Source: Terriglobus albidus (GTDB taxonomy: Bacteria; Acidobacteriota; Terriglobia; Terriglobales; Acidobacteriaceae). Taken from it: a stretch of DNA of 64,000 nt. The translations under genes were made by a program, and so were the position numbers. Below are positions 31,521 through 64,000 of the stretch, piece after piece. Location: contig NZ_JAGTAS010000057.1 in NCBI RefSeq assembly GCF_025685425.1, forward strand, positions 186,001 to 250,000, in the 5' to 3' direction. How positions within the stretch are numbered: position 1 is the first letter of the stretch; each line of letters starts with the position of its first letter. The notes below the pieces were generated by a model, which saw nothing but the letters and a program-made list of their open reading frames with translations, ran no database searches and was not told the origin of the DNA.

Positions 31521-32696
31521 ATGCGCATTCTGCACATTATCCGGACGATCAATCCCGAAGCTGGAGGACCGGCTGAGGCTGTCCGTACACTGATCAGCTA
31601 TAAGAATCTCGGTTATGAGGGAGAGGTCCTTACACAGGATGCCCCGGATGCGCCGTACCTGAAAGGACTGAACTTCCCCGTGCATGCGCTGGGACCGGTC
31701 CATTCCACCTACGGATATACCGCAAAGATGATTCCCTGGCTGAAGAAAAATGCCTCGCGCTTCGACGGCGCGGTCGTCAACGGGCTCTGGAACTACGGGG
31801 GAATTGCCGCGTACCAGGCGCTCCGCGGCCAGATTCCGTATGTTGTCTTTCCCCACGGCATGCTTGACCCTTACTTCAAGGCGGCATATCCGCTCAAACA
31901 TTTCAAGAAGCTCTGCTACTGGCTTTCGGCCGAGTATCGGGTACTGAAAGAGGCCAACTACGTCCTCTTCACCTCGAACGCGGAAAAAGATCTCGCCGAG
32001 AAGACCTTTCCGATTTACCGCTGGAATCCGCACGTCGTTCCCTACGGCGCCGATCATCCGCACATCCAGAGATCGGAAGCGCTCCGGGCTTTTTATGAAG
32101 CCGCACCCTATCTTGAAGGCAAGCGTTTTCTCCTGTTCCTTGGTCGAATTCACCCCAAAAAAGGCGTGGATCTTATGCTTGAGGCCTTCGCCAAGACTGC
32201 GGCTCTCGATCCGGATCTGCATCTGGTGATTGCAGGCCCGGACCAGGTGGGATGGCGCCAGGAATTGCAGACCGTTATTGACAAAGCCGGTCTGACCAGC
32301 CGTGTCCACTGGCCCGGCATGCTCAAAGGAGCGCTCAAATGGGGCGCGTTCTATGCCTGCGAGGCATTTATTCTGCCGTCGCACCAGGAAAACTTTGGGA
32401 TTGCTGTCGCAGAGGCCCTCGCTTGTGGAAAGCCCGTGCTGCTCTCCGATCAGGTGAACATTGCCCCTGACATCAAAGCCGATAATGTCGGCTTGGTAGA
32501 GCCGGACACCCTGGAAGGAACCCTAAACCTGTTTCGCCGCTGGCACGGCCTTTCTCAGGAAGAACGAGCGCGGATGTATGCGCAAGCACCGGTCACCTTT
32601 CGTACACGGTACGATATGAAAGAAAACGCGAAGACAATCCTGCGTCTATTCGAAGATGCGCGGACAAATGGTTCACGCGACAGCTCAGGCAAATAA
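31521..32696 (+). CDS. Glycosyltransferase family 4, second copy
   Basis: 391 aa GT-B enzyme. The N-terminus MRILHIIRTINPEAGGPAEA is typical of WcaI/WbuB-like transferases. The C-terminal domain has FLLFLGRIHPKKGVDLMLEA and the EX7E motif ENFGIAVAE followed by CGKPVLLSDQVN. The sequence differs enough from the preceding transferase to imply a different linkage. It follows that gene by 42 bases and is followed after one base by the acyltransferase start, so the order kinase, export, GT4, GT4, acyltransferase forms one operon. Confidence 0.9.
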   Translation: MRILHIIRTINPEAGGPAEAVRTLISYKNLGYEGEVLTQDAPDAPYLKGLNFPVHALGPVHSTYGYTAKMIPWLKKNASRFDGAVVNGLWNYGGIAAYQALRGQIPYVVFPHGMLDPYFKAAYPLKHFKKLCYWLSAEYRVLKEANYVLFTSNAEKDLAEKTFPIYRWNPHVVPYGADHPHIQRSEALRAFYEAAPYLEGKRFLLFLGRIHPKKGVDLMLEAFAKTAALDPDLHLVIAGPDQVGWRQELQTVIDKAGLTSRVHWPGMLKGALKWGAFYACEAFILPSHQENFGIAVAEALACGKPVLLSDQVNIAPDIKADNVGLVEPDTLEGTLNLFRRWHGLSQEERARMYAQAPVTFRTRYDMKENAKTILRLFEDARTNGSRDSSGK

Positions 32697-50909: not shown

Positions 50910-51043
50910 AACACCTGATTCTAGCGATGCGCCCTTCATCCCATCCTGGGGCGAAGGGCTCGATTCAACCTTCAAAACTGGATCAAGAAAGGTTTGGCTT
51001 TCGTACACGCAATATATTCAACGAACAAATAGGAGAAAATATA

Positions 51044-51073
51044 TTGACAACACGTTATCGTACACGTTTTCAT
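51044..51073 (+). promoter_or_regulatory. Candidate promoter and repressor operator of the GH27 gene
   Basis: TTGACA (51044-51049) and TTTCAT (51068-51073) form a sigma-70-like pair with an 18-base spacer. The spacer holds ACGTTATCGTACACGT (51052-51067), 14 of 16 bases identical to the perfect palindrome ACGTGTTCGTACACGT upstream of the TonB-dependent receptor. A half-site TCGTACACG lies at 51001-51009. A repressor bound here would block RNA polymerase. Confidence 0.55.
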
Positions 51074-51175
51074 GTTAGCCGCTATCGACGGCCTGAGAAT
51101 CCGGCACGTCGAACTGATCCAACAACCTCTCCCTCGTCTGCTGAGGCATATATCGGTAATAGAGGAAGTGATCGC

Positions 51176-53647
51176 ATGAGACGTAGTTCCCTCCCCTCTC
51201 TTGTCCTGCTCGCAGGACTGACTACCCTCCTTCCCCACGCCAGCGCACAGGTCAACGGCTCAGGGCACAAACCCTACCTTGGCTGGAGCAGCTTCAGTCA
51301 ACAGACCCTTGACGGCAATTTTCTGACGCAGGCGAACATGATCGCCCAGTCCGATGCACTCAAGACATCGGGGCTGCAGGAACATGGCTTCGTCTATATC
51401 AATCTCGACTCCGGCTGGCAGGGCAGCTTCGATCAGAACGGACGGCCGATTCCCAACACGACAACCTTCCCCGACATCAAGGCGCTTGTCGATCACATCC
51501 ATGCCAATGGACAAAAGGCCGGCCTTTACTGGATTCCCGGTATCGAGCAGCCTGCCGTTGACGGCAACTATCCAATCCTCGGCACGCAATATCACACACA
51601 GGACATAGTCGTAACGCCGCTCGCCAAGGGCAATGCATTCGCTGGGAATCCGCCGAATCCCTACCACGACAAGATCGACTTCACGAAGCCGGGCGCGCAG
51701 GAGTACATCGACTCGGTCGTCGCACTCTTCTCTTCCTGGGGCTTCGACTTCATTAAGCTGGATGCCGTGACACCTGGCTCCTACTCCAACGATCTCTCCA
51801 TCGATAACCGCGCTGACGTCGAGGCGTGGTCCAAGGCGATCGCCAAAACCGGTCGACCGATCTGGCTCACGGTCTCCTGGCAGCTCTCACAGGACTATGC
51901 CTCTGTCTGGCAGCAGTGGTCCAACGCGCGCCGCATCGACGACGACGTGGAGTGCGAAGGCCGCTGCGCAACGCTCACTAACTGGCCGCGTATCGTGTTA
52001 CGTGAATACGACAATGTGGGTTGGCAGCATGAGACCGGCGCCACACTTGGATGGAACGACATGGACACGCTCGACGTAGGCGATGGCGCGCTCGATGGTC
52101 TTTCCGATGATGAGAAGCAGACCGCGATCACCATCTGGGCCGTGGCGAGCTCTCCCATGTATCTGGGCGGCGACCTCACCAAGCTCGACGACTTCGCCAA
52201 GTCTGCCTTCACAAACGATGAGCTCATCGCCGTCGATCAGTCCGGGCGGCCCGCAGTACAAGTGACCGGAGGCCCGCAGCCGGTGTGGATGTCAAAGCAG
52301 GCAGACGGCAGCATCTATGTCGCGCTTTATAACCTGAACGGATTGCCCAGCAAGATCACCGTACGGTGGAGTGATCTTGGCTTCCGCAGTGCGATAGCGG
52401 TGCGTGATGTATGGAATCGCATTGACCTCGGGGCCTCTCCGGCCGTCTTCACCACAACCATTCTCGGTCACGGTTCACGCCTGCTGAAGGTGACACCCTT
52501 CGGGACGGTCTCCGCACCCGCCGGCCGTGTTTATGAGGCTGAATCCGCAACCCTCAGCGGTTCCACCTACGTCTCGCAGTGCTCTGCCTGCTCCGGCGGC
52601 GCGAAACTAAGCTATCTCGGAGCTTCGCCGACGACGAACAATGCGACCTTCAACGTCTACGTGGAGGAGGCAGGAACCTATCGCATGGAGGTGGACGCCA
52701 TGACGCAAGGGCCCCGCGCCCTGGTTTATACCGTCAATGGAAGCCATCCTGCGACGCTGAACATGGGTGGAGGCAGCTTCAACCTGCCCCAGGCCACAAC
52801 GGTTCCGGTGACGCTGCTCGCTGGTAATAACACCATAACCTTCGGCAATCCGGGAACCTATGCCGCGGATCTCGATCGCATCGTGATCTCCGGCAACGGC
52901 AATGCGATTCCAGCGGACTTCACCACCTACGAAGCAGAAGCCGCGCAGCTCAGCGGCACGGCCAGTGTTGGTGGATGCAGCTTCTGCTCCGGCGGAGCCT
53001 ATGTCGGCAACTACGGCGATGGCAGCCAGAACGCGGTCACCTTCCCTAATGTCACTGTCGCGCAAGCAGGCAGTTATCAGCTTGAGATCGACTACACTAC
53101 CAGCGGTCTGCGCACCTTCTACATCTCCGTCAACGACGGCCCGGCGACCCCACTGGAAGTGAACGGCAGCACCTTCGATTCACCCGTGCCCGTCCTGCTC
53201 CCGGTGCAGTTGCATGCGGGCAGTAACAAGATCGTTATCGGCAACCCCAACTCCGGTGGATACGCTCCCGGTCTCGACAGTATTACCGTTGGACCGATCG
53301 TCGGTTCATCCAATCTGACGGCTGCGATTACCAACAAGACCGGCCCGGACCTGCTCCGCGTCTGGCAGCTTTCGCTCACGAATGCGGGCAATGCCACCGC
53401 ACAGAACGCTCATCTGAATAGCTTCATGCTGTTTCCCTTAACCGCCGGCACAGGATGCTATGCCAAACCACTGCTTCCGACGCCACTTCCTGTGGGTAGC
53501 ATCTCCACCGGATCGACACGCAGCATCAACATGCCCGTTGTCTTGTCGCCGCTTTGCCACGATGACGATACGTACCATCTGCAAGCCATCTTCTCCGCGA
53601 ATAACGGAGCTGATGTCGGCAACCTGACTTCCACGGAAACTCACTAG
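51176..53647 (+). CDS. Secreted GH27 glycosidase (alpha-galactosidase-like) with two CBM modules
   Basis: 823 aa. Signal peptide (LPSLVLLAGLTTLLPHASA), GH27 barrel (about residues 28-330): GWSSFSQQ, YINLDSGWQ, FIKLDAVTPG with the Asp nucleophile and RIDDDVEC with the acid/base. A beta-sandwich follows, then two similar CBM35/CBM6-type modules (each opening YEAE..., each with a CxxCSGGA pair) and a C-terminal domain of about 110 residues. GH27 members cleave alpha-galactosides; some act on beta-L-arabinopyranosides. ATG at 51176 has AGAGGAAG upstream and starts the signal peptide; the frame from 50927 runs through the promoter. The TAG stop lies inside the terminal repeat of D4. Confidence 0.9.
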   Translation: MRRSSLPSLVLLAGLTTLLPHASAQVNGSGHKPYLGWSSFSQQTLDGNFLTQANMIAQSDALKTSGLQEHGFVYINLDSGWQGSFDQNGRPIPNTTTFPDIKALVDHIHANGQKAGLYWIPGIEQPAVDGNYPILGTQYHTQDIVVTPLAKGNAFAGNPPNPYHDKIDFTKPGAQEYIDSVVALFSSWGFDFIKLDAVTPGSYSNDLSIDNRADVEAWSKAIAKTGRPIWLTVSWQLSQDYASVWQQWSNARRIDDDVECEGRCATLTNWPRIVLREYDNVGWQHETGATLGWNDMDTLDVGDGALDGLSDDEKQTAITIWAVASSPMYLGGDLTKLDDFAKSAFTNDELIAVDQSGRPAVQVTGGPQPVWMSKQADGSIYVALYNLNGLPSKITVRWSDLGFRSAIAVRDVWNRIDLGASPAVFTTTILGHGSRLLKVTPFGTVSAPAGRVYEAESATLSGSTYVSQCSACSGGAKLSYLGASPTTNNATFNVYVEEAGTYRMEVDAMTQGPRALVYTVNGSHPATLNMGGGSFNLPQATTVPVTLLAGNNTITFGNPGTYAADLDRIVISGNGNAIPADFTTYEAEAAQLSGTASVGGCSFCSGGAYVGNYGDGSQNAVTFPNVTVAQAGSYQLEIDYTTSGLRTFYISVNDGPATPLEVNGSTFDSPVPVLLPVQLHAGSNKIVIGNPNSGGYAPGLDSITVGPIVGSSNLTAAITNKTGPDLLRVWQLSLTNAGNATAQNAHLNSFMLFPLTAGTGCYAKPLLPTPLPVGSISTGSTRSINMPVVLSPLCHDDDTYHLQAIFSANNGADVGNLTSTETH

Positions 53648-53759
53648 AGCATTTTCCCTGTTGCTCGGTATCCCGAAAGAGGAGGCAGCGGCGTTTTCAT
53701 TGCGGAAAACGCCCATAGATGCGGATGCTCTGGACTACACCTACAGGGAAATGCTCTAG
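53644..53759 (+). repeat. MITE-like palindromic element D4
   Basis: Best-preserved copy: CTAGAGCATTTTCCCTG at the left, CAGGGAAATGCTCTAG at the right, internal GGCGTTTTC-ATTGC-GGAAAACGCC. The left CTAG includes the TAG stop of the GH27 gene. Confidence 0.88.
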
Positions 53760-53763
53760 CGAC

Positions 53764-53802
53764 AAAGAAGAAGAGCAGCCCATTGAGCTGCTCTTCTTCT
53801 TT
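53764..53802. terminator. Bidirectional terminator between GH27 and GH97 genes
   Basis: AAAGAAGAAGAGCAGC pairs perfectly over 16 bp with GCTGCTCTTCTTCTTT around a 7-base loop. It separates two convergent genes. Confidence 0.92.
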
Positions 53803-53827
53803 ATGTCGAGAACGAACATCTCGATCC

Positions 53828-55822
53828 CTAGTTCTCCTTTTTGAAGCGAATCGCGGCTCCCCCGCCCGGCGCCAACCGAAGCGAGAAGGTCTCCTTGCTC
53901 GATACAGATCTGGACGAGATATTGAGATGCTTTGGCTCTGACGCTGTATCCTGAGCATCTTCATACATCTGTGCCACGTAACGGCCATTGCCGAGGAAAC
54001 TAAGCGGTACCTGTAATGTTCTTGCCTGCCAGTTGGTCATGGCGCCCAGATACCAGTCGTCACCGTGACGGCGTGCGATCACAGCCTCTTCTCCGGGCGT
54101 GCTCGACAACACATGGGTCTCGTCCCACTCGACAGGGACATCCTTCAGGAACTGAAAACCAGGCTGGTTGGTGTAGTTCTGGGGACTGTCGGAGAGCATG
54201 GGGAAAGGCGTCTCGTAGATAACATAGAGCGCGAGCTGCTGTGCCCGGGTTCCCATGGCCATGGGAGCTTCGTTCCGCGCAACGAACTTATCTTCGGTTG
54301 CATTGTCGAAGGCTCCGGCGGTGAAATCCATTGGCCCGGCGAGCAAACGAGTAGAGGCAAAGGTCGTGCGGTCGACTGGGCTATCGCGCCGCCCGACCTT
54401 GTTATTTTCCAGCCCTAAGACAGCCTCATAGCTCAGAACATTCGGATAAGTGCGGAGGAGGCCCCAGGGCGTGTGACATCCATGAAAATCGACCATGAGG
54501 TGGTGCTCCGCCGCCAGCTTCGCAACGTCGTAGTAGAACTGAATGCCCTGCTGGTCATCGCGGTTGACGAAATCGATCTTCAAGCCGGCGACGCCCCATT
54601 TCTCATAGAGCGGAAATGCTTCCTGCATCTGCTTCATCACCGATGTGGAATAGAGCCAGATCCAGACCTTCACGTTTTTGGTCGCGCCGTAGCGAACCAG
54701 TTCTGGAACATCGACCTTGCCGTTCAACTGCGTTATATCTCCGGACTTTGACCAGCCGGCGTCGAGCATGAAATACGGCAGCCCGTTCGCTGCTGAAAAA
54801 TCGATGTACTCCTTCATTACTTCAGTAGTGAAAGCGGAGTGTCCTGTTTTGCTGACATTGTCGACCCACCAGTTCCAACTGGCCTTGCCGCCATGGATCC
54901 AGCTTGTGTCCGTCAAGCGCGACGGAGGATTGAGATCGGTCAGCAGATTAGACTCGACCAGCGGTCCGGGATCGTCAGCAATACCCAGCACTCTCCAGGC
55001 GGAGTGATGCGGCAGTGTGCCGAGGACGGCGTATTGGGGATCATCCCAGCGCGGAGAGAGCTTGACTGAAAGATAGTGGCCGGCCCAGTTTCCCGATGGG
55101 TTGGTCAGATACATGGAGCTGTTGGTCTCGAGATCAGCCTCCATCAGTGACAGCCATGCCACACCTGGCTGATGCAGCAGGACCGGGGTTCCGATCAGGA
55201 AGTTACTGGAGACGCCGCCCTGATTGCTCAAGGCCGAGAGGTTCAGGCGGACGTATTCGCTTTCATAACTACTGCGATAGTTCGGCAGGGCCAATACCCA
55301 GGCGGTATCATCTTCGGCGAATCGGAACTCGGTTCCTTCCGACTTCAGCTTGAGATCCTGCAAGCCATCCTGGGCGGGAACAAGATAGCGAAATGCGATG
55401 CCGCTGTTATAGGCGCGCGCTTCGACATCGAGCTTCCGATGGGTACCGCCAGCCTCTACTGCATGAACGACCACAGCGTTATACGGGTCGTGGACTTTGC
55501 TTGTCTTGGTATTGCGCAGACCGTAGTCGTCGATACCCGATGACGGCTCCGCTCTTTCGATTCGTACCTCTGATCCGAGCATCGGTCCGGAATCCAGATC
55601 GAGACCGAGCGCCGACTCATTCAATACGCGCTTTCCCTTGAAGGTAACCGAATAGCCGAGGGCGCCGGCGCCTTCATGAGCGTCTTTTCCCTGCTTCAAG
55701 ATGAAGGTCATTTTGAGGCGGCCATCGGGAGATGTCACAGAGGGCGACTCTTGCGCGAGGACTGGTGTAACGACGGTTAGAGCGAGAGCGGCACAAACGG
55801 GGGCGATAGAACGCAATTGCAT
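53828..55822 (-). CDS. Secreted GH97 glycosidase, retaining-type active site
   Basis: 664 aa. Signal peptide (IAPVCAALALTVVTPVLA), N-terminal beta-supersandwich (SPSVTSPDGRLKMTFIL, GLDLDSGPMLG) and a (beta/alpha)8 barrel with SWNWWVDNVSKTGH, YFMLDAGWS and GLKIDFVNRDDQQG. The Asp in KIDF is where retaining GH97 alpha-galactosidases have their nucleophile; inverting SusB-type alpha-glucosidases have Gly there. SYEAVLGLENNK gives the conserved Glu. An alpha-galactosidase-like role fits the GH27 neighbour. ATG at 55822 with GGAG upstream opens the signal peptide; an ATG at 55882 is possible. It follows the receptor gene on the same strand, so the two form an operon. Confidence 0.9.
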   Translation of the reverse strand: MQLRSIAPVCAALALTVVTPVLAQESPSVTSPDGRLKMTFILKQGKDAHEGAGALGYSVTFKGKRVLNESALGLDLDSGPMLGSEVRIERAEPSSGIDDYGLRNTKTSKVHDPYNAVVVHAVEAGGTHRKLDVEARAYNSGIAFRYLVPAQDGLQDLKLKSEGTEFRFAEDDTAWVLALPNYRSSYESEYVRLNLSALSNQGGVSSNFLIGTPVLLHQPGVAWLSLMEADLETNSSMYLTNPSGNWAGHYLSVKLSPRWDDPQYAVLGTLPHHSAWRVLGIADDPGPLVESNLLTDLNPPSRLTDTSWIHGGKASWNWWVDNVSKTGHSAFTTEVMKEYIDFSAANGLPYFMLDAGWSKSGDITQLNGKVDVPELVRYGATKNVKVWIWLYSTSVMKQMQEAFPLYEKWGVAGLKIDFVNRDDQQGIQFYYDVAKLAAEHHLMVDFHGCHTPWGLLRTYPNVLSYEAVLGLENNKVGRRDSPVDRTTFASTRLLAGPMDFTAGAFDNATEDKFVARNEAPMAMGTRAQQLALYVIYETPFPMLSDSPQNYTNQPGFQFLKDVPVEWDETHVLSSTPGEEAVIARRHGDDWYLGAMTNWQARTLQVPLSFLGNGRYVAQMYEDAQDTASEPKHLNISSRSVSSKETFSLRLAPGGGAAIRFKKEN

Positions 55823-55892
55823 CCGGCAGACTCCATCGAACGAAGAACAGAGCAGAGTGACGAGCCCCGCTCTGTTCCTCATATTCAGTTAC

Positions 55893-58800
55893 CTAAAAAA
55901 CATACTTCAGAGAGAGCTGAAGGAAGCGAGCGTCAGGTGCATTTGCCTGAAGATTCTTGGGGCCGGTGATCTGGCCGCCATTGCTTCCGTTGCTGGTGTT
56001 AGATGGGCTGCCAAGTGTCGGGTGGTTGAAGAGGTTGAAGGCATCGGCGCGGAACTGGAGGAACTGCTCGCGGAAGGTGGTGAAGTTCTTGAAGAGGGAC
56101 GAGTCCGCGCGCCAGAAGCCCGGACCATAGATCAGGTTCTGCTTATCGCCGAGATAGGCGAGCACCTGGCTCGGATTGGTGATAAGGGTTCCTGCCGGGA
56201 TGGTATTCCCCGGGAGTGGGTTGGCAAAGGCGCAGGGGTTATACCAGTTGTCTTTGGTCCGCACCTGCGATGGACAGGAGCTGGCGCCACCTGTGGGAGG
56301 CGTGCCTCCCGCCTTGAACGGATCGCCTACGCGGACGGCACGAGCAGAACCGCCCGACGCTGTAGAGCCGATCGGGCTGATGCCACCCAGCGGAAGACCG
56401 CTCTGGCCGGTAAAGGTAGCGCTGACCTGCCATCCTCCAACCGCGAGATCGAGCCAGCGTGAGTTGTTCAGGTAGCTACGCCCATGTCCGAAAGGAAGCT
56501 GATAACTGCCGTTGAAGGTAAAGCGGTTGCGGATGTCGTAAGAGGAGTTCGTGTACTCCGAGCCAAGGCCAAGGAGATAGTACGAACGCACACCGATGCC
56601 ATTCGAGAGACCACCGGCGGAACTCGAGTTATCGAGCGCGTGCGCCCAGGTGTAGGTTGCCAGGAAGGAGAGCCCGTGCGAGAACCGTTTCTCCAGCTTG
56701 GTCTGTAGCGAGTTGTAATCGCTGACACCGCTGTACTGAATCTGACCGGTCCATCCAAGGGTGGGAAAGGGGTTGAGATTGTTGGTATTCGTTCCTGCCG
56801 TAGTGAGCGCCAGGGACGAATTGGGCGCCCAGTAGGTGGAGAGATGACGGCTCACATTGCCGACATAAGCGACGGAAGCCACAAAGTCAGGGTTAAGCGC
56901 GTATTGAAATGAGAGGCTGTAGTTCTGCGTATATGGCGTCTTGATCCTTGCATCCGTGGCATGGAATCCCGGCTGCGTTGGAACAGCACTTGCATTCAGC
57001 GCCGGCAGCCCCGACTGCAGCGTATACGGAAGCGGGCTGCAGCTTATGGCATTGCAGGTGGGCTGGTTATAGCTCGAGTTCAGAGTAAAGGGATAGTTTG
57101 CACCCAGGTTGCCGTTGCCATGGCTCTGCAGGCCGCCGTAGAAGATCCCGTAGCCTCCGCGGATGACCGACTTCGGGCTGAGCTGATAGGCAAAGCCGAA
57201 GCGCGGTGCAAAGTTCACCTTTTGAGCTTCGAGCAAGCGAGCGTTATCGACGTACTGCACCGCAACATTATTCGCCGCCAGCAGAGAGACAAATGCCGGG
57301 CTTAATGAGTAACGCTGGGCTCCTGCCGGTAGCTGATACACCGCTCTTCCCGTGCCAACGCCGGAGCTGTTGAGCCCCACTGGGGCGGTGAGGACAAAGT
57401 TCGCCTGCTGATCACGTGACTCCGCATAGGGTTGATACCAGTCCCAACGGAGTCCGAGATTGAGTGTCAGCTTCGACGTGGCGCGCCAGTCGTCCTGAAA
57501 GTAGGCGGAGTCGTACCACTGCTGATCGTGCACAGCGGGAACATTGGAAATATACGCGCTCGACATCTGGTTCGCGAGGAAGTCTGCGGTGCCACTGGTT
57601 GCGCTGGATCCGGGGACAGAGGTGTAGCTGCCGTTGAAGTTGTACTGACCACGCGGAGCCTCCGCGTAGGTGTAGTAGAAGCGCACATTCTGGAAAGCAA
57701 CACCGAACTTCATGGAGTGGTTGCCGGCGATCTTCGTGATGTTGTCGAGGATCTGGTAGACGTTCTGAGACTCGTTCGAAGTACCAACCGATCCCCAGTA
57801 GCTTGCACCAACAGTTCCCTGCAACTGCCCCTGTGGAAGTCCGCCCTGGAAGGGACTGAAGGGTACATTGCCCAGGCCAAGGCTGGAAGCCAGCGTCGAG
57901 TTGTTCGCGTTCGGTTGCAGGAATCGGAAGACGCCCCAGTTGTAGCCGGCACGGAACTCATTCGTTAGCGAGGGGCCGAAGACATGAGTCTCGCTGAACA
58001 TCCCATTCTGAGAAAGATTCGTGTCCCGTTCGCCGCCATAACCGCTGCCGTCGAGAATCGAGCCGAGCGGCAAACCGTTGTTGATGATCTCGTGAGCATA
58101 GCTGTAGCGACCGTAGAGCTGATCTTTCGAGCTGATGTTCCAGTCGAGGCGCTGATCCCATTGGATAGTGTTATCGCGCTTGCCAATGTTGGTGTTGTAG
58201 TTGTTGTATGTCTTGCCGTTGTTGACGTTCGGCGATGGATACAGGTTGAGAATGTTCTGCGCGGTCGCATTGATGTCCGCGGAGCAGAAGACATTCTGCG
58301 GACGGCCGCATGGCTGGCCGAGAGGTATGGTACCCCGTGATCCGGGCTGATAGAGGTTGATGGGTCCGCTGTAACCGGTCAGCGAAGGGTTCAGAAGCTC
58401 CGTGAAGTCTCCGGTACGCATTCTTGCTGTCGGCACAGTAAAGACCCCGGGACTGCCAAAGGAAACGCGGTTGGCTTCAATGTCTCCGAAGTAAAAGAGC
58501 TTGTTTTTGAAGATGGGAAATCCCAGCGTGGCTCCGAACTGATTCTGATGGAATGCCGGAACGGTCAGCGCATTCCAGTTACGGGCATTCATCTTGTCAC
58601 TACGAAAGTACTCCCAAAGGCTTCCGTGGATAGCATTGGTTCCGGATTTGATACTCGCGTTCAGGACGGCGCCTGCGGAATGGCCAAACTCCGCGCTGTA
58701 GTTGCTGGTCTGCAGGTTGAACTCGGCAAGGGCATCCGGCGGCGGCCGCATGACAAAGGTCGCACCGTTCAAGAAGTCGACGAGATTGGTGTTGTTATCC

Positions 58801-59411
58801 ACGCCGTCGAGGATGAAGTTGTTCTGCTCTGCGCGCTGACCGTTGGCGACAAAGTCTCCCTTGCCTGAGCCACGCGTCTGTCCCTGAGGCGGCGCGACTC
58901 CGGCTGAGAGCTGTGCGATAAAGACCCAGTTGCGACCGTTAAGCGGGGTTTCATTAATAGTCCTGGAATCGACAACCTGCCCTACCGCTCCGGTCTGGGT
59001 ATCGAGAAGAGGCGGCGCCGTATCCACCGTGACATTCTCAGTGACTGCACCGGGCTTCAACTCGAAGTTGATGCCCAGGCGGGCCTGGACATTCAATAGC
59101 AGGTTGTCGCGCTTCGATGTTTGAAAACCGTCCGCCGTCACCGTAACCGAGTAGCGGCCGATCTTCACCGGAGAAAAGACATAGATCCCGCTCTCGTTGG
59201 TCCGCCGTTCTAAGCTCAGGCCAGTGTCAGTGGCATTGAGCGTGACCCTTGCGTTGGGAATCGTTGCGCCACTGTTATCACTTACAACTCCGGTGATGGT
59301 TCCTTGATCCATTTGGGCTTCTCCCTGGCGGAGAGATAGCCCGAAGACAAGTCCGACGATTGCGATAAGCGGGCGTAACCGCACCCAGATATTTTGCTTC
59401 GAGACGCACAT
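55893..59411 (-). CDS. TonB-dependent receptor, Oar-like with carboxypeptidase-regulatory domain
   Basis: 1172 aa outer-membrane transporter. Signal peptide, then a CarboxypepD_reg/CNA-B-like fold (GTITGVVSDNSGATIPNARVTLNATDTG split over two strands), a plug domain (NETPLNGRNWVFIAQLSAG, GVDNNTNLVDFLNG) and a large barrel ending in ...LQLSLKYVF with the C-terminal aromatic residue. Oar-like receptors of this kind are abundant in acidobacteria. Position next to the GH97 and GH27 genes suggests uptake of oligosaccharide. AAGGAAGG lies before the ATG. The TonB-like protein at 10.9 kb could energise it, though no link is shown. Confidence 0.92.
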   Translation of the reverse strand: MCVSKQNIWVRLRPLIAIVGLVFGLSLRQGEAQMDQGTITGVVSDNSGATIPNARVTLNATDTGLSLERRTNESGIYVFSPVKIGRYSVTVTADGFQTSKRDNLLLNVQARLGINFELKPGAVTENVTVDTAPPLLDTQTGAVGQVVDSRTINETPLNGRNWVFIAQLSAGVAPPQGQTRGSGKGDFVANGQRAEQNNFILDGVDNNTNLVDFLNGATFVMRPPPDALAEFNLQTSNYSAEFGHSAGAVLNASIKSGTNAIHGSLWEYFRSDKMNARNWNALTVPAFHQNQFGATLGFPIFKNKLFYFGDIEANRVSFGSPGVFTVPTARMRTGDFTELLNPSLTGYSGPINLYQPGSRGTIPLGQPCGRPQNVFCSADINATAQNILNLYPSPNVNNGKTYNNYNTNIGKRDNTIQWDQRLDWNISSKDQLYGRYSYAHEIINNGLPLGSILDGSGYGGERDTNLSQNGMFSETHVFGPSLTNEFRAGYNWGVFRFLQPNANNSTLASSLGLGNVPFSPFQGGLPQGQLQGTVGASYWGSVGTSNESQNVYQILDNITKIAGNHSMKFGVAFQNVRFYYTYAEAPRGQYNFNGSYTSVPGSSATSGTADFLANQMSSAYISNVPAVHDQQWYDSAYFQDDWRATSKLTLNLGLRWDWYQPYAESRDQQANFVLTAPVGLNSSGVGTGRAVYQLPAGAQRYSLSPAFVSLLAANNVAVQYVDNARLLEAQKVNFAPRFGFAYQLSPKSVIRGGYGIFYGGLQSHGNGNLGANYPFTLNSSYNQPTCNAISCSPLPYTLQSGLPALNASAVPTQPGFHATDARIKTPYTQNYSLSFQYALNPDFVASVAYVGNVSRHLSTYWAPNSSLALTTAGTNTNNLNPFPTLGWTGQIQYSGVSDYNSLQTKLEKRFSHGLSFLATYTWAHALDNSSSAGGLSNGIGVRSYYLLGLGSEYTNSSYDIRNRFTFNGSYQLPFGHGRSYLNNSRWLDLAVGGWQVSATFTGQSGLPLGGISPIGSTASGGSARAVRVGDPFKAGGTPPTGGASSCPSQVRTKDNWYNPCAFANPLPGNTIPAGTLITNPSQVLAYLGDKQNLIYGPGFWRADSSLFKNFTTFREQFLQFRADAFNLFNHPTLGSPSNTSNGSNGGQITGPKNLQANAPDARFLQLSLKYVF

Positions 59412-59735
59412 ATTGGCCTTCCTTTACTGAACCCGTCCGGTTAGTCTCATTGAAAAACGTGTTCGTACACGTAATAGCACTCATGTATGAAGCGCCGGTA
59501 ACGCTAATACAAGCCGTGAACGTATGTCAAATTCCATAAATAGTCGCTGGAAACGGTGATTGAACGGCGGATCCCTAACGCACTCAAAGCGAAGGAGAGT
59601 CAAAGTGAATCCTGTAGAAATACAGAAATCAAACCAAAATCCAGATGAGAATTGTTTTCTCCTGTGGTACGGTAACGTTCACGAAATCTTTGCGTTTATC
59701 CGCAATACCGGGTAACTTTCCACGAGGTAGTTGTT
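59412..59735. promoter_or_regulatory. Divergent promoter region of receptor and DUF5107 genes with repeated operator motifs
   Basis: This 324-base gap holds no credible gene. It contains the perfect palindrome ACGTGTTCGTACACGT (59457-59472), shared with the GH27 promoter, and CGGTAACGCT (59496-59505) and CGGTAACGTT (59670-59679). On the minus strand TTGACA (complement of 59525-59530) precedes TATTAG by 15 bases; the first CGGTAACG motif overlaps that -10. The second overlaps a weak -10 of the plus-strand promoter. AAGGAAGG and ACGAGGTAG are the two ribosome-binding sites. Confidence 0.55.
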
Positions 59736-62700
59736 ATGGCTTACGAGTCGATTTCAGACCCGCACCTGGCGCCGCACTCCCAGTCAGAGCTGGTTCTGCC
59801 AGAAGCGCCCAGCTCTGAGACCGGTCCGGTAAAGGTCTGGAACGAGGCCGTCACCATGCTGACGTATGAGCCAGCGGCGCCTGACAAGAATCCCCTCTTT
59901 CTAGAGAAGCGTGTTTACCAGGGCAGCAGCGGACGGGTCTACCCGCTGCCGGTGATCGATTACATCGCTACAAAGCCCAAGCCCAAAGCATGGGAAGCAG
60001 TCCATCTCGAAAACGAATATCTACGCCTGATGGTCATGCCAGAGATTGGTGGACGGATCCACCTTGGTCTCGACAAGCGGACGGGATACGACTTCTTCTA
60101 CCGCCAGAATGTGATCAAACCCGCTCTCGTGGGACTTGCGGGACCATGGATCTCGGGCGGCGTGGAATTCAACTGGCCTCAGCATCATCGTCCTGCCACC
60201 TTTATGCCCGTAGAGGTCAGCGTGGAGCGTGCATCCGACGGCAGCATTACCGTCTGGTGTTCGGACCATGACCCTATGTCTCATCTGAAGGGAATGCATG
60301 GCATCTGCCTGCGGCCAGGGTCTGCGGTAGTGGAAGTAAAGGTTCGCTTATATAACCGGACGCAGGATACGCAGACCTTTCTCTGGTGGGCCAATGTTGC
60401 GACCAAGGTCCATGAGAAATACCAATCGTTCTTTCCGGAAGATGTTCGCTTCGTTGCTGACCACGCAAAGCGGGCGGTTACGGAGTATCCCCTCAGCCAG
60501 GGAACGTACTACGGTGTGAACTACAAGCAGCGCGCGCTTGAGGGGGTTCCTCCAGAAGAGATGCCATCCTGCTTTGTGCCCGACGGCTCCTACCCTGCCA
60601 ATGACCTTGGCTGGTATGCCAACATTCCTGTGCCGACCAGCTACATGATCGTCGGTTCGCAGGGTGACTTCTTTGGTGGCTATGATCACGCACGCAAGGC
60701 AGGAACCGTCGCTGTCGCCAATCACCATGTTGCTCCCGGCAAGAAGCAGTGGACATGGGGCAATCACGAGTTCGGCTACGCCTGGGACCGCAGCTTGACG
60801 GACCGTGATGGTCCTTATGTCGAACTTATGTCCGGTGTCTATACCGACAATCAACCGGATTTCTCGTTCCTGGCTCCGGGTGAGACCAAGACCTTCAGCC
60901 AGTTCTGGTATCCCATCGGAGAGATCGGAGTTCCGAACCTGGCGAATGTCCAGGGAGCCCTCCGTGTCGAACGTGATCCTGAAGCCATCATCGTGCACGT
61001 TCAGTTGGCCACAGCGAAGGAGAATTGCGTGGTCGTGGCGCGGACAGCGGCCCGCGAGCTCGGCCGCTGGTCAGGAGCTCTGACGCCGGAGACGACATGG
61101 TCCGGAAAATTTGAGCACAGTGGCTCGCTGCGAGGCCTTGAAGTAAGCGTACAGGCCGGAGAGGTGACGCTCCTGCGTTATGCCCCCGACGAGACGGTTC
61201 CGGTTCAGGCTCCCGAGGTGGCAACCGAGCCGCCGCTGCCGCAAGATGTCGAGAGCGTGGATGAGCTGTTCCTCACCGGTCTTCATCTCGAACAATATCG
61301 CCATCCGACGCGCAGCCCTGAAGCTTATTGGCTTGAAGCTATCCAACGCGATGCCGGGGACAGCCGCTGCAACCACATGCTGGGACGGTGGCACCTGCGG
61401 CGGGGAGAGTTCGAAAAGGCGGAGCAGCACCTGCGCACCGCCATCGCCCGCATGACCCGTCGCAACCCCAATCCTTACGACGGCGAACCGCACTACAACC
61501 TCGGACTCACCCTGCGATATCAGCAGCGAGTTGCCGACGCCTATGACGCCTTCTACAAGTGCACGTGGAATGCTGCCTGGCGTGGCCCGGGATATCACTG
61601 CCTGGCGGAGATCGATTGCCTACGCGGAGAATGGCCGAAAGCGCTCGATCACCTCAACCGGTCCCTCTGTGCAGACACAGACAACCTGAATGCACGCGAT
61701 TTGAAGACGATAGTGTTGAACCGGCTGGGGAGAAACGAAGAGGCGCAGCGGCTTCTGGATGAGACGCAGGCCCTCGACCCTCTCGATGTCTTCGCCCGTT
61801 TCCTGAGGCATGGGGAAATACCCAATAATCCCCAGATGCAGCTTGATCTTGGCTTTGACCTCACACGCGCCGGACTCTTCGAAGAAGCTCTCCGAGCACT
61901 ACCTGCCGATGCCACATCTACGATGGTGAGATATGCGCGCGCCGACGTTTTGCGACAGATGGGAAGAACAAATGAGAGCACTGAAGCGTATCGTCGCGCT
62001 TCCGAGGGAGATCCCGACTATCTGTTCCCGGATCGACTGGAAGAACTGGCTGTTCTTGAACAGGCCCTGGAGATCAATCCGAAGGACGCACGTGCGGCTT
62101 ACGCGTTGGGCAATCTTTTATACGATCGCCGGAGACACCGCGAGGCCATTGCGCGCTGGGAACAGAGTGTCGCTGCAGAGCCTGACTTCCCGGTCGCATG
62201 GCGAAATCTCGGAATCGCATACTTCAATATCCACTCCGACAGCCGCAGCGCTGTTGATGCCTTTGAATGCTCACGTCGGTGCGCTCCGGACGATGCACGG
62301 CTTCTTTACGAACTGGATCAACTTCGCAAGCGCACAGGGACGCCACTCGCAGCGCGCGAGAGAGCACTTCTTGATGAACCCGACCTGGTCGAGAAGCGCG
62401 ACGATCTCTCCCTAGAACTGGCTTCGCTGCACAACAGTCTCGGCAGACCTGAAGAAGCGCTACGGATTCTTCGTCAGCGGCAATTCCAGCCGTGGGAAGG
62501 TGGAGAGGGGCTGGTGCTCTCAGAGTATGTCCGCGCCAACGTGCTTCTGGCGCAGGATGCGCTTCCCGCAGAGCCACAGAAAGCTCTGGAGTTTCTCGAT
62601 GCCGCGAGCTCCCCTCCCCGCAACCTCAGCGAAGCGAAGCATCTGCTGATGAACCTAAGCATGATCGATTACTGGTACGGGGTTGTCTATACGGCACTCG

Positions 62701-63131
62701 GCAACGTGAAGAAAGCCCAGGAATCCTGGTCACGAGCGGCCCGGTATACAGGCGACTTCCAACAGATGCAAGTGCAGCCCGTCTCTGAGATGACCTACTG
62801 GAGCGCGATGGCCTTACGGCAGCTGGGACAGGAACAGGAAGCAACTGATCTTTTCCGCACGATTGAGACGTACGCATCCGTCCTGGAGCACCAGACACCT
62901 AAGATTGATTACTTCGCCACATCATTGCCCGCAATGCTGCTGTTCGAGGTCGACCTGAAGGAGCGCCAAACGATCACTGCCCGCTTCCTCGAAGCACAGG
63001 CGGCATTCGGAATGGGAGATCGGCAACGCGCGGTAGAGCTTCTCGATCAGGTTGAAGCCATGGATCGCAGTCATAGCGGCGCCATCGATATGCGCAGGCT
63101 GGTTATGGGTGAATCATGCACGGTCCGATAG
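59736..63131 (+). CDS. DUF5107 domain protein with long TPR repeat tail
   Basis: 1131 aa, no signal peptide. Residues about 30-400 are a DUF5107-type domain that reads like the galactose-mutarotase beta-supersandwich: ENEYLRLMVMPEIGGRI, LDKRTGYDFFYRQNV, GGVEFNWPQHHRP with His/Glu positions and WCSDHDPMSHL. From about 510 on there are roughly ten TPR repeats (NHMLGRWHLRRGEFEKAEQHL, YNLGLTLRYQQRVADAYDAF, YALGNLLYDRRRHREAIARW). The domain is expected to bind or act on sugars in the cytosol, with TPRs for partner binding. It overlaps the sugar porter gene by 16 bases, so import and this protein are coupled. The biochemical activity is unknown to me. Confidence 0.85.
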   Translation: MAYESISDPHLAPHSQSELVLPEAPSSETGPVKVWNEAVTMLTYEPAAPDKNPLFLEKRVYQGSSGRVYPLPVIDYIATKPKPKAWEAVHLENEYLRLMVMPEIGGRIHLGLDKRTGYDFFYRQNVIKPALVGLAGPWISGGVEFNWPQHHRPATFMPVEVSVERASDGSITVWCSDHDPMSHLKGMHGICLRPGSAVVEVKVRLYNRTQDTQTFLWWANVATKVHEKYQSFFPEDVRFVADHAKRAVTEYPLSQGTYYGVNYKQRALEGVPPEEMPSCFVPDGSYPANDLGWYANIPVPTSYMIVGSQGDFFGGYDHARKAGTVAVANHHVAPGKKQWTWGNHEFGYAWDRSLTDRDGPYVELMSGVYTDNQPDFSFLAPGETKTFSQFWYPIGEIGVPNLANVQGALRVERDPEAIIVHVQLATAKENCVVVARTAARELGRWSGALTPETTWSGKFEHSGSLRGLEVSVQAGEVTLLRYAPDETVPVQAPEVATEPPLPQDVESVDELFLTGLHLEQYRHPTRSPEAYWLEAIQRDAGDSRCNHMLGRWHLRRGEFEKAEQHLRTAIARMTRRNPNPYDGEPHYNLGLTLRYQQRVADAYDAFYKCTWNAAWRGPGYHCLAEIDCLRGEWPKALDHLNRSLCADTDNLNARDLKTIVLNRLGRNEEAQRLLDETQALDPLDVFARFLRHGEIPNNPQMQLDLGFDLTRAGLFEEALRALPADATSTMVRYARADVLRQMGRTNESTEAYRRASEGDPDYLFPDRLEELAVLEQALEINPKDARAAYALGNLLYDRRRHREAIARWEQSVAAEPDFPVAWRNLGIAYFNIHSDSRSAVDAFECSRRCAPDDARLLYELDQLRKRTGTPLAARERALLDEPDLVEKRDDLSLELASLHNSLGRPEEALRILRQRQFQPWEGGEGLVLSEYVRANVLLAQDALPAEPQKALEFLDAASSPPRNLSEAKHLLMNLSMIDYWYGVVYTALGNVKKAQESWSRAARYTGDFQQMQVQPVSEMTYWSAMALRQLGQEQEATDLFRTIETYASVLEHQTPKIDYFATSLPAMLLFEVDLKERQTITARFLEAQAAFGMGDRQRAVELLDQVEAMDRSHSGAIDMRRLVMGESCTVR

Positions 63132-64000
63132 AGGTTGCCACAACAGGAAGTTCTGCCGAAGCAGAAAAGACGACGTATGTGTGGGGTATTGCAATCGTAG
63201 CAGCGTTAGGTGGCCTGCTCTTCGGTTATGACTGGGTGGTGATTGGCGGCGCGCGAGAGTTCTATGAGATTTACTTTCATCTCACCTCCGCCAATCTTGT
63301 GGGATGGGCGAATAGTTGCGCGCTGGTAGGCTGTCTCGCCGGTTCTTTGATCGCAGGCTCGCTGGCGGATGGGTTTGGAAGAAAGCCAGTCTTGCTGATC
63401 TCTGCCCTGCTATTCGCTGTCTCGTCTATTCTTACGGGCTGGGCATATTCATTTACGAGCTTCATTGCGTGGCGAATCGCCGGAGGAGTGGCGATTGGAC
63501 TCAGTTCCAACGTCTCGCCTCTTTATATCGCTGAGGTCAGTCCGTCATCGCTTCGCGGGCGCCTCGTGAGCCTGAATCAGTTCGCGATCGTGGTCGGAAT
63601 TCTCCTTGCCCAGGTCGTCAACTGGCTTGTGGCAAAGCCTATTCCGGAACATGCTTCCGCGGACATTCTTTTTGCATCATGGAATGTCCAGTATGGCTGG
63701 CGCTGGATGTTCACCGCGCTCGTCATTCCATCCGCGATCTTTGCGTTTGCCGCTTCATGGATTCCGGAAAGTCCGCGCTGGCTGGCGGCCCGTAGACGTC
63801 AAGAGGATGCGCAGCGAACGCTCGCGAGGGTTGGCGGCCAGGCTTACGCCCAGGCAGAGTTGGCCAATATTGACCGCACGCTAAGCCTTGAACACAAGGT
63901 TGCGACCAGCCTCTGGCAGGAGCTGGCGGCTCCTGCCGTTCGCCGCATTCTGCTTGTTGGAATCGGTCTCGCTGTCCTGCAGCAATGGACGGGGATCAAT
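63116..64000 (+). CDS. Sugar porter MFS transporter (XylE/GalP-like), 3' end missing
   Basis: 295 codons to the right edge, frame still open. Starts at ATG 63116 inside the DUF5107 gene. Family signatures: LGGLLFGYDWVVIGG in helix 1, SLADGFGRKPVLL (the RxGRR/K motif), WRIAGGVAIGLSSNVSPLYIAEVSPSSLRGRL (split here over helices 4-5, with the PLYIAE and RGR motifs), WIPESPRWLAARRR (PESPRWL) and LQQWTGIN just before the edge. H+-coupled uptake of a monosaccharide such as galactose or xylose is likely; arabinose is also possible given the GH27 neighbour. The end lies outside the window. Confidence 0.93.
   Translation, partial: MHGPIEVATTGSSAEAEKTTYVWGIAIVAALGGLLFGYDWVVIGGAREFYEIYFHLTSANLVGWANSCALVGCLAGSLIAGSLADGFGRKPVLLISALLFAVSSILTGWAYSFTSFIAWRIAGGVAIGLSSNVSPLYIAEVSPSSLRGRLVSLNQFAIVVGILLAQVVNWLVAKPIPEHASADILFASWNVQYGWRWMFTALVIPSAIFAFAASWIPESPRWLAARRRQEDAQRTLARVGGQAYAQAELANIDRTLSLEHKVATSLWQELAAPAVRRILLVGIGLAVLQQWTGIN

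Follow-up and report, generated by a model that had tools for sequence, protein, structure and literature searches.

A probable LacI-type operator shared by putative galactoside uptake and cleavage genes in Terriglobus albidus and its relatives

In Terriglobus albidus, which probably lives in soil, a GH27 gene and the gene of a TonB-dependent-receptor-like protein on the opposite strand are preceded by nearly the same inverted repeat, which raises the question of whether both belong to one carbohydrate regulon with a common operator, as the original prediction had claimed, and of which regulator reads it. The stretch of DNA analysed here, the window, comprises 64,000 nucleotides (C39:186001-250000 of the 6.1 Mb genome). 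A single regulon is supported, as orthologues of the receptor, GH27, DUF5107 and lacI genes in relatives are again preceded by operators, and it is wider than GH27 and the receptor, including also GH97 and the DUF5107-MFS-lacI operon, to which galactokinase can probably be added (Table 1). The motif is very probably the operator of a LacI repressor that is encoded 616 bases past the end of the window.

Table 1. Sites and genes of the cluster; positions refer to the window unless a contig (C39) or locus (L023) is named.
Feature	Position	Strand	Details
Operator 1	51052-51067	+	ACGTTATCGTACACGT, core CGTTATCGTACACG at 51053-51066; 109 bases 5' of GH27 ATG; core conserved in 3 of 3 near relatives
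Operator 2	59457-59472	-	ACGTGTTCGTACACGT, core CGTGTACGAACACG on - strand; 46 bases 5' of receptor ATG
Operator 3	59670-59683	+	CGGTAACGTTCACG; 52 bases 5' of DUF5107-MFS-lacI operon
Auxiliary half-site, GH27	51002-51009	+	CGTACACG; centre 57 bases 5' of operator 1 centre
Auxiliary half-site, receptor	59515-59522	-	CGTTCACG; centre 57 bases 5' of operator 2 centre
TTGACA, candidate -35 of GH27, without clear -10	51044-51049	+	
TTGACA adjoining receptor half-site	59525-59530	-	
GH27 enzyme (alpha-galactosidase-like) with CBM35 modules	51176-53647	+	Pfam; solved-structure comparison
GH97 enzyme, predicted retaining alpha-galactosidase type	53828-55882	-	Pfam; 3' of receptor gene
TonB-dependent-receptor-like outer-membrane barrel with carboxypeptidase-regulatory domain	55893-59411	-	Pfam
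DUF5107 and TPR protein, operon gene 1	59736-63131	+	Pfam; divergent from receptor
MFS sugar porter, operon gene 2	63116-64000, on to L023:4546	+	Pfam; 16-base overlap with DUF5107-TPR gene
lacI, operon gene 3	C39:250617-251714 = L023:4617-5714, outside window		70 bases 3' of MFS gene

Operators 1 and 2, the pair from which the original prediction started, lie where they had been placed and are identical at 14 of 16 positions. Operator 2 had been described as a perfect palindrome, but only 7 of its 8 pairs match and it differs from its own reverse complement at 2 of 16 positions; by eye, 4 of 7 core pairs match in operator 1 and 5 of 7 in operator 3, and the central CG is kept in both. The even palindrome with central CG that is typical of LacI sites is found in operator 2 and in sites of relatives. 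Operator 3 and the half-site before the receptor gene had been overlooked. In a wider frame given by a weight matrix, operator 3 is a mixed site, TACGGTAACGTTCACGAA at 59668-59685, with the halves CGGTAACG and CGTTCACG; this matrix was built from 11 seed sites of the window and its relatives, one of which (the GH27 site of the window) had a wrong outermost base and a right core, and it was not used for the pattern, footprint and co-occurrence tests. If as many as 3 mismatches are allowed, the window contains 3 matches to the 16-mer, of which two are the same site on opposite strands, versus a mean of 0.18 in dinucleotide shuffles, and none of the 100 shuffles reached 3. The half-site TCGTACACG at 51001-51009 was found again, whereas the claim that this 9-mer occurs at three places only does not hold, as the window has four copies. 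The fourth copy, at 32600-32608, lies within a listed ORF and is there probably by chance.

The GH27 operator had been assigned to the spacer of a promoter, of which one half is supported: TTGACA precedes the operator by 2 bases and has been retained in 3 of 3 near relatives as well as in the window, but a sigma-70 scan found no promoter pair at this operator. When the window is aligned with these three relatives, TTGACA, the operator core and TTTTCAT are conserved in all of them, and so is the half-site CGTACACG, the surrounding DNA of which has diverged; judged from this alignment, the extra half-site looks real. The operators altogether appear as conserved blocks amid diverged DNA (near relatives aligned: three for GH27, two for the receptor). 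In both promoters the conserved half-site (CGTACACG at GH27, CGTTCACG at the receptor) has the orientation of the full operator and lies upstream of it, and the distance from centre to centre is 57, 57, 58 and 58 bases for GH27 in the window, G128, L071 and L072, and 57 bases for the receptor in the window, G128 and L072. Of the 26 sites examined, 7 have such a half-site at about 57 bases; these come without exception from the window and three near relatives, and none of the other 19 has one. Upstream of the DUF5107 gene, a half of the CGGTAACG or CGTTAACG type lies on the side far from the gene in 18 of 31 rows, the window included; in two distant relatives (L102, L110) the CGGTAACG half is on the side near the gene, and an additional site in this near-side orientation, more than 300 bases off, is present in L125 and L128. 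In three receptor promoters of other relatives (L133, L134, L135), the site is accompanied by another site or half-site at a distance of 32-33 bases, a spacing at which PMC4052901 reports a peak.

The genes behind these sites fit a sugar-related function, albeit with some latitude as to the substrate. In the GH27 protein, PF16499 and PF17801 cover the catalytic and the C-terminal domain, and the pocket motif of the window's protein and its orthologues is NLDSGW or NIDSGW, in contrast to NIDDCW in 5 of 5 aligned GH27 structures. The Asp-Asp pair of NIDDCW presumably binds galactose, and with NLDSGW in its place the substrate and the exact linkage are not fixed by the family domains. In the GH97 protein, comparison with solved structures aligns an Asp with that of the alpha-galactosidase 3a24, while 5e1q has a Gly at this position; this Asp is assumed to be the nucleophile of the catalytic domain, and the protein is predicted to be of the retaining alpha-galactosidase type. 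The DUF5107-TPR protein is uncharacterised, and its gene is found beside an MFS porter gene in the loci of many relatives. To the right of the window, ORFs at L023:19250-19770 encode a peptide repeat a few dozen residues long (CSSRIFPVAGYP...), which points to a DNA repeat array.

A LacI- or GntR-type gene had been expected just right of the window, and the lacI gene is indeed located there. Its product has the LacI HTH (PF00356) and the periplasmic-binding-protein ligand domain (PF13407), both above the cut-off, and is one of 16 LacI-domain matches in the genome. The HTH of the clade reads SI(G/A)TVDRA(L/F). Its AA-20 is Arg and NT-6 of the sites is G, the combination that is described for LacI-type proteins in PMC2978694. 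TVDR stands in 45 of 45 HTH rows (two rows being one gene), which places the clade outside the TVSR subgroup. The positions of the sites agree with this assignment as well, since the grammar of LacI sites, as given in PMC4052901, comprises a central CG and a distance of 30-140 bases from the start codon, and the three operators are 109, 46 and 52 bases away.

It is thus most likely, as far as the sequences tell, that the regulator is a self-regulating LacI-type repressor responding to galactose or a galactoside; its binding to the DNA, its action as a repressor and not as an activator, and its inducer are predictions. The LacI dimer would recognise two half-sites that meet at a central CG, approximately CG[TG][GT][TA][TA]CG[TA][AT][CA][AC]CG, and it would do so at three places: after TTGACA before GH27, before the receptor and GH97 genes, and before the DUF5107-MFS-lacI genes. 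Because operator 3 precedes the operon of lacI itself, LacI would regulate its own synthesis. All three transcription units would be off without inducer, and galactose, or a galactoside freed by the enzymes, would release LacI, whereupon uptake by the TonB receptor and the MFS porter and cleavage by GH27 and GH97 would go up together. A LacI paralogue with the same operator code beside galactokinase would tie the cluster to galactose breakdown.

In the genome of T. albidus, the degenerate pattern CGKKWWCGTWCACG has only four matches, which lie before GH27, before the TonB receptor and GH97 genes, before the lacI operon and before galactokinase. Scattering of the motif within genes, named in the original prediction as contrary evidence, is therefore absent for this pattern, but these same four sites, three in the window and one at galactokinase, had served to build the pattern. 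As the reversed pattern has one match on each strand of the genome, the count of four is no enrichment, and it is the places of the matches that make the argument. A second gene with a galactokinase signature (C39:601586) has no CGKKWWCGTWCACG match. A search of the whole genome for CGTGTNCGNACACG with 2 mismatches is uninformative (232 matches versus 342 on each strand in the control).

Relatives were searched with a consensus that had not been trained, CGTGTWCGWACACG, in the 350 bases before orthologues, which were defined by identity cuts of 40-50% depending on the gene; left out were the genome of the window together with its near copies (G128, L071, L072), L073 as a duplicate, and the paralogue loci in G000 and G128. 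With up to 3 mismatches, a site is found before 17 of 21 receptor genes, 4 of 4 GH27 genes, 17 of 28 DUF5107 genes and 13 of 36 lacI genes, as compared to 1 of 26 MFS and 0 of 5 DUF4432 genes; among coding pieces it is 97 of 1878, and among other upstream regions of the same loci (counting any that share DNA with regulon genes) 28 of 291. In Edaphobacter modestus DSM 18101 (L074), both the receptor gene and the GH27 gene are preceded by a site with the exact core. The figure for GH97 is 4 of 19, or 3 of 18 without one slicing artefact (G180, L091, with a negative coordinate). At this threshold 11 of 28 DUF5107 promoters and 23 of 36 lacI promoters are without a site. When only 2 mismatches are tolerated, the receptor (10/21), GH27 (3/4), DUF5107 (3/28) and lacI (7/36) stand against MFS (0/26), GH97 (0/19), coding pieces (8/1878) and other upstream regions (16/291).

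The sites also go together with the regulator. Among 200 genomes of the family, 65 have the LacI clade, defined by a match at E 1e-60, and CGGTAACGTACACG is found in 24 of these 65 versus 2 of the 135 others, with a p-value (1e-11) that is overstated because related genomes are not independent; the reversed control gives 4/65 versus 6/135. Of the 33 CGGTAACGTACACG sites, 29 are no more than 21 kb from a clade lacI, for which the 47 of 72 clade matches with at least 42% identity were considered. CGTGTWCGWACACG is present in 10 of the 15 genomes whose LacI has at least 60% identity and in 9 of the 185 others (p=1e-8, overstated for the same reason), the reversed control in 1/15 and 13/185, and with a cut at 58% the numbers are 11/20 versus 8/180; both cuts were chosen by the analyst. 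Over the whole clade the CGTGTWCGWACACG signal is weak, as the reversed control does nearly as well (12/65 versus 7/135, p=0.004, and reversed 8/65 versus 6/135, p=0.04). There are 21 CGTGTWCGWACACG sites, 13 of them up to 21 kb from lacI, and of the eight far ones seven are in genomes without the clade and one is in G158. In G158, a GH27 gene with 67% identity to that of the window lies about 2 Mb away from lacI and has the operator 94 bases upstream, which tells regulation apart from mere neighbourhood. In genomes without the LacI clade, 6 of 7 exact CGTGTWCGWACACG sites are inside called ORFs, as chance would give, and three sites in LacI genomes (L155, L157, L170) likewise overlap called ORFs. 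ORFs were called as the longest frame, and where sites overlap the drawn starts (L178, L182, L183, L185, L186), these starts were taken as over-long. What the sequences as such show is that the sites exist, where they lie, that they are conserved and that they co-occur with the LacI clade.

The genes found downstream of the sites in relatives indicate what the regulon is about, namely galactose and alpha-galactosides. They include galactokinase in G015, an aldose-epimerase-like gene and GH30_2 in G064, GH97 in G056, and GH36 followed by GH95 in G031, G095 and G166; that three relatives have GH36 in the same position speaks for alpha-galactosides. Less fitting targets are a sulfatase in G114, a DUF4861/GH88 gene in G015 and a weak GDSL-lipase match in G070. 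The site of G123 (L190) apparently lies within the signal peptide of an aldose epimerase and may therefore be due to chance; in G152 and G087 the sites fall within called ORFs, and in G142 a site is at a contig end. G183 has a second GH27-like gene (L178:4150-6257) that directly follows an exact operator and aligns in two pieces. In G031, a GH27 remnant (L123:601-825) adjoins the operator, with GH36 and GH95 on the other side, and alpha-galactosidase families have likely been swapped at this one operator. That the G031 operator (L083:18883) is a leftover of GH27 loss does not need to be assumed, as the GH36 gene lies on its far side.

Not every part of this evidence singles out the lacI gene next to the window. 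The fourth CGKKWWCGTWCACG match is on C28, between galactokinase and a LacI paralogue (C28:220303-221334) with 48% identity, and it would be conceivable that this paralogue is the main reader of the operators, or that both proteins read them. The recognition helices are nearly identical (ISIGTVDRALHGR versus ISIGTVDRALHNR), the galactokinase site CGGTAACGTACACG is one base apart from operator 3, and the one LacI match of G194 at the E-value used is of the paralogue type, with the same site as CGGTAACGTACACG before galK-galT. Three of the four paralogue-type proteins adjoin galactokinase. However, in a midpoint-rooted tree of 43 LacI proteins these four, one of which carries a long-branch warning, are separate from the other 39 that include the window's LacI, and in many loci lacI lies beside receptor, GH97, GH27 or DUF5107 genes, so that the paralogue is unlikely as the main or joint reader, albeit worth considering. 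Far less probable is a regulator of another family (such as a GntR/AraR-like protein) with LacI as a bystander. AraR-type operators also have a GTACGTAC core, but the presence of the operator tracks the LacI clade over the 200 genomes, and G at NT-6 fits the recognition rule of LacI proteins.

The inverted repeats could also function at the RNA level, where they would form a weak leader terminator or attenuator, and the receptor site with TTTT was in fact scored as terminator-like, with TTTT following the GH27 site, too. The stem has only 6 pairs, though, of which 3 are G-C, and in L073, L083 and L104 the site is not directly followed by a run of T on either strand, judging by two flanking bases on each side. 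An RNA terminator was rejected on the grounds of the short stem and these missing T runs, which leaves a function in the RNA with a very slight probability, marginally below that of a regulator from another family. Chance as the reason for the match at 14 of 16 positions is the least credible account and close to negligible. The genome-wide count of the 16-mer, 23 versus 55 for the reversed control when 3 mismatches are allowed, is no enrichment and could be cited in its favour, but chance would not account for conserved blocks in diverged promoters, the co-occurrence, the footprints before orthologues and the GH27 operator of G158. The LacI encoded next to the window thus remains the most probable reader of the motif.

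For the family as a whole, it may tentatively be proposed that two groups of paralogous TVDR-type LacI proteins with one operator code wire galactoside foraging (TonB receptor, GH27/GH97/GH36) to galK, galT and the epimerase, and that half-site variants are fixed. The operon that regulates itself would then have mixed CGGTAACG/CGTACACG sites that mostly point one way, and the genes for uptake and cleavage would have near-symmetric sites, accompanied in the window's lineage by a half-site 57 bases further upstream. If this is true, the fixed half-site variants would give graded responses. For sugar foraging in Acidobacteria, the analysis provides a regulator, an operator and a set of targets that can be tested, and it ties an uncharacterised DUF5107-TPR protein to galactoside use via common control. 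New operator data are also gained for LacI proteins with a TVDR helix, a set outside the treatment in PMC2978694 as far as its main text goes.

The system is a LacI-type sugar regulon of a known sort, although a literature search for such a regulon in Acidobacteria found none, and 'Acidobacteria' occurred in none among the matches listed. Sus-like polysaccharide utilization loci place a TonB-type receptor and glycosidases under one switch. The same combination under one switch is found here, but the regulator is a LacI and there is no SusD among the proteins scanned by Pfam. GalR, LacI and MsmR, as listed in Table 1 of PMC4052901, are comparable in that the sites described here precede galactokinase, galT, aldose-epimerase-like and GH27/GH36 genes; unlike in these regulators, the helix is IG-TVDR instead of TVSR, and the ligand domain is best matched by PF13407. 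The recognition code of the TVSR set (PMC2978694) has Arg at AA-20, G at NT-6 and the central CG in common with the present clade, whereas it covers TVSR proteins, and 'TVDR' is absent from the main text of that source. In its organisation the system resembles the local sugar regulons of the LacI family in PMC4052901, the main text of which does not contain the word 'Acidobacteria': there, as in T. albidus, lacI lies beside its targets, CG-centred sites are located 30-140 bases out, the genes are sugar catabolic and sites can be paired, while a TonB-type receptor and GH27/GH97 as targets and one class of operators with mixed sites set the present regulon apart.
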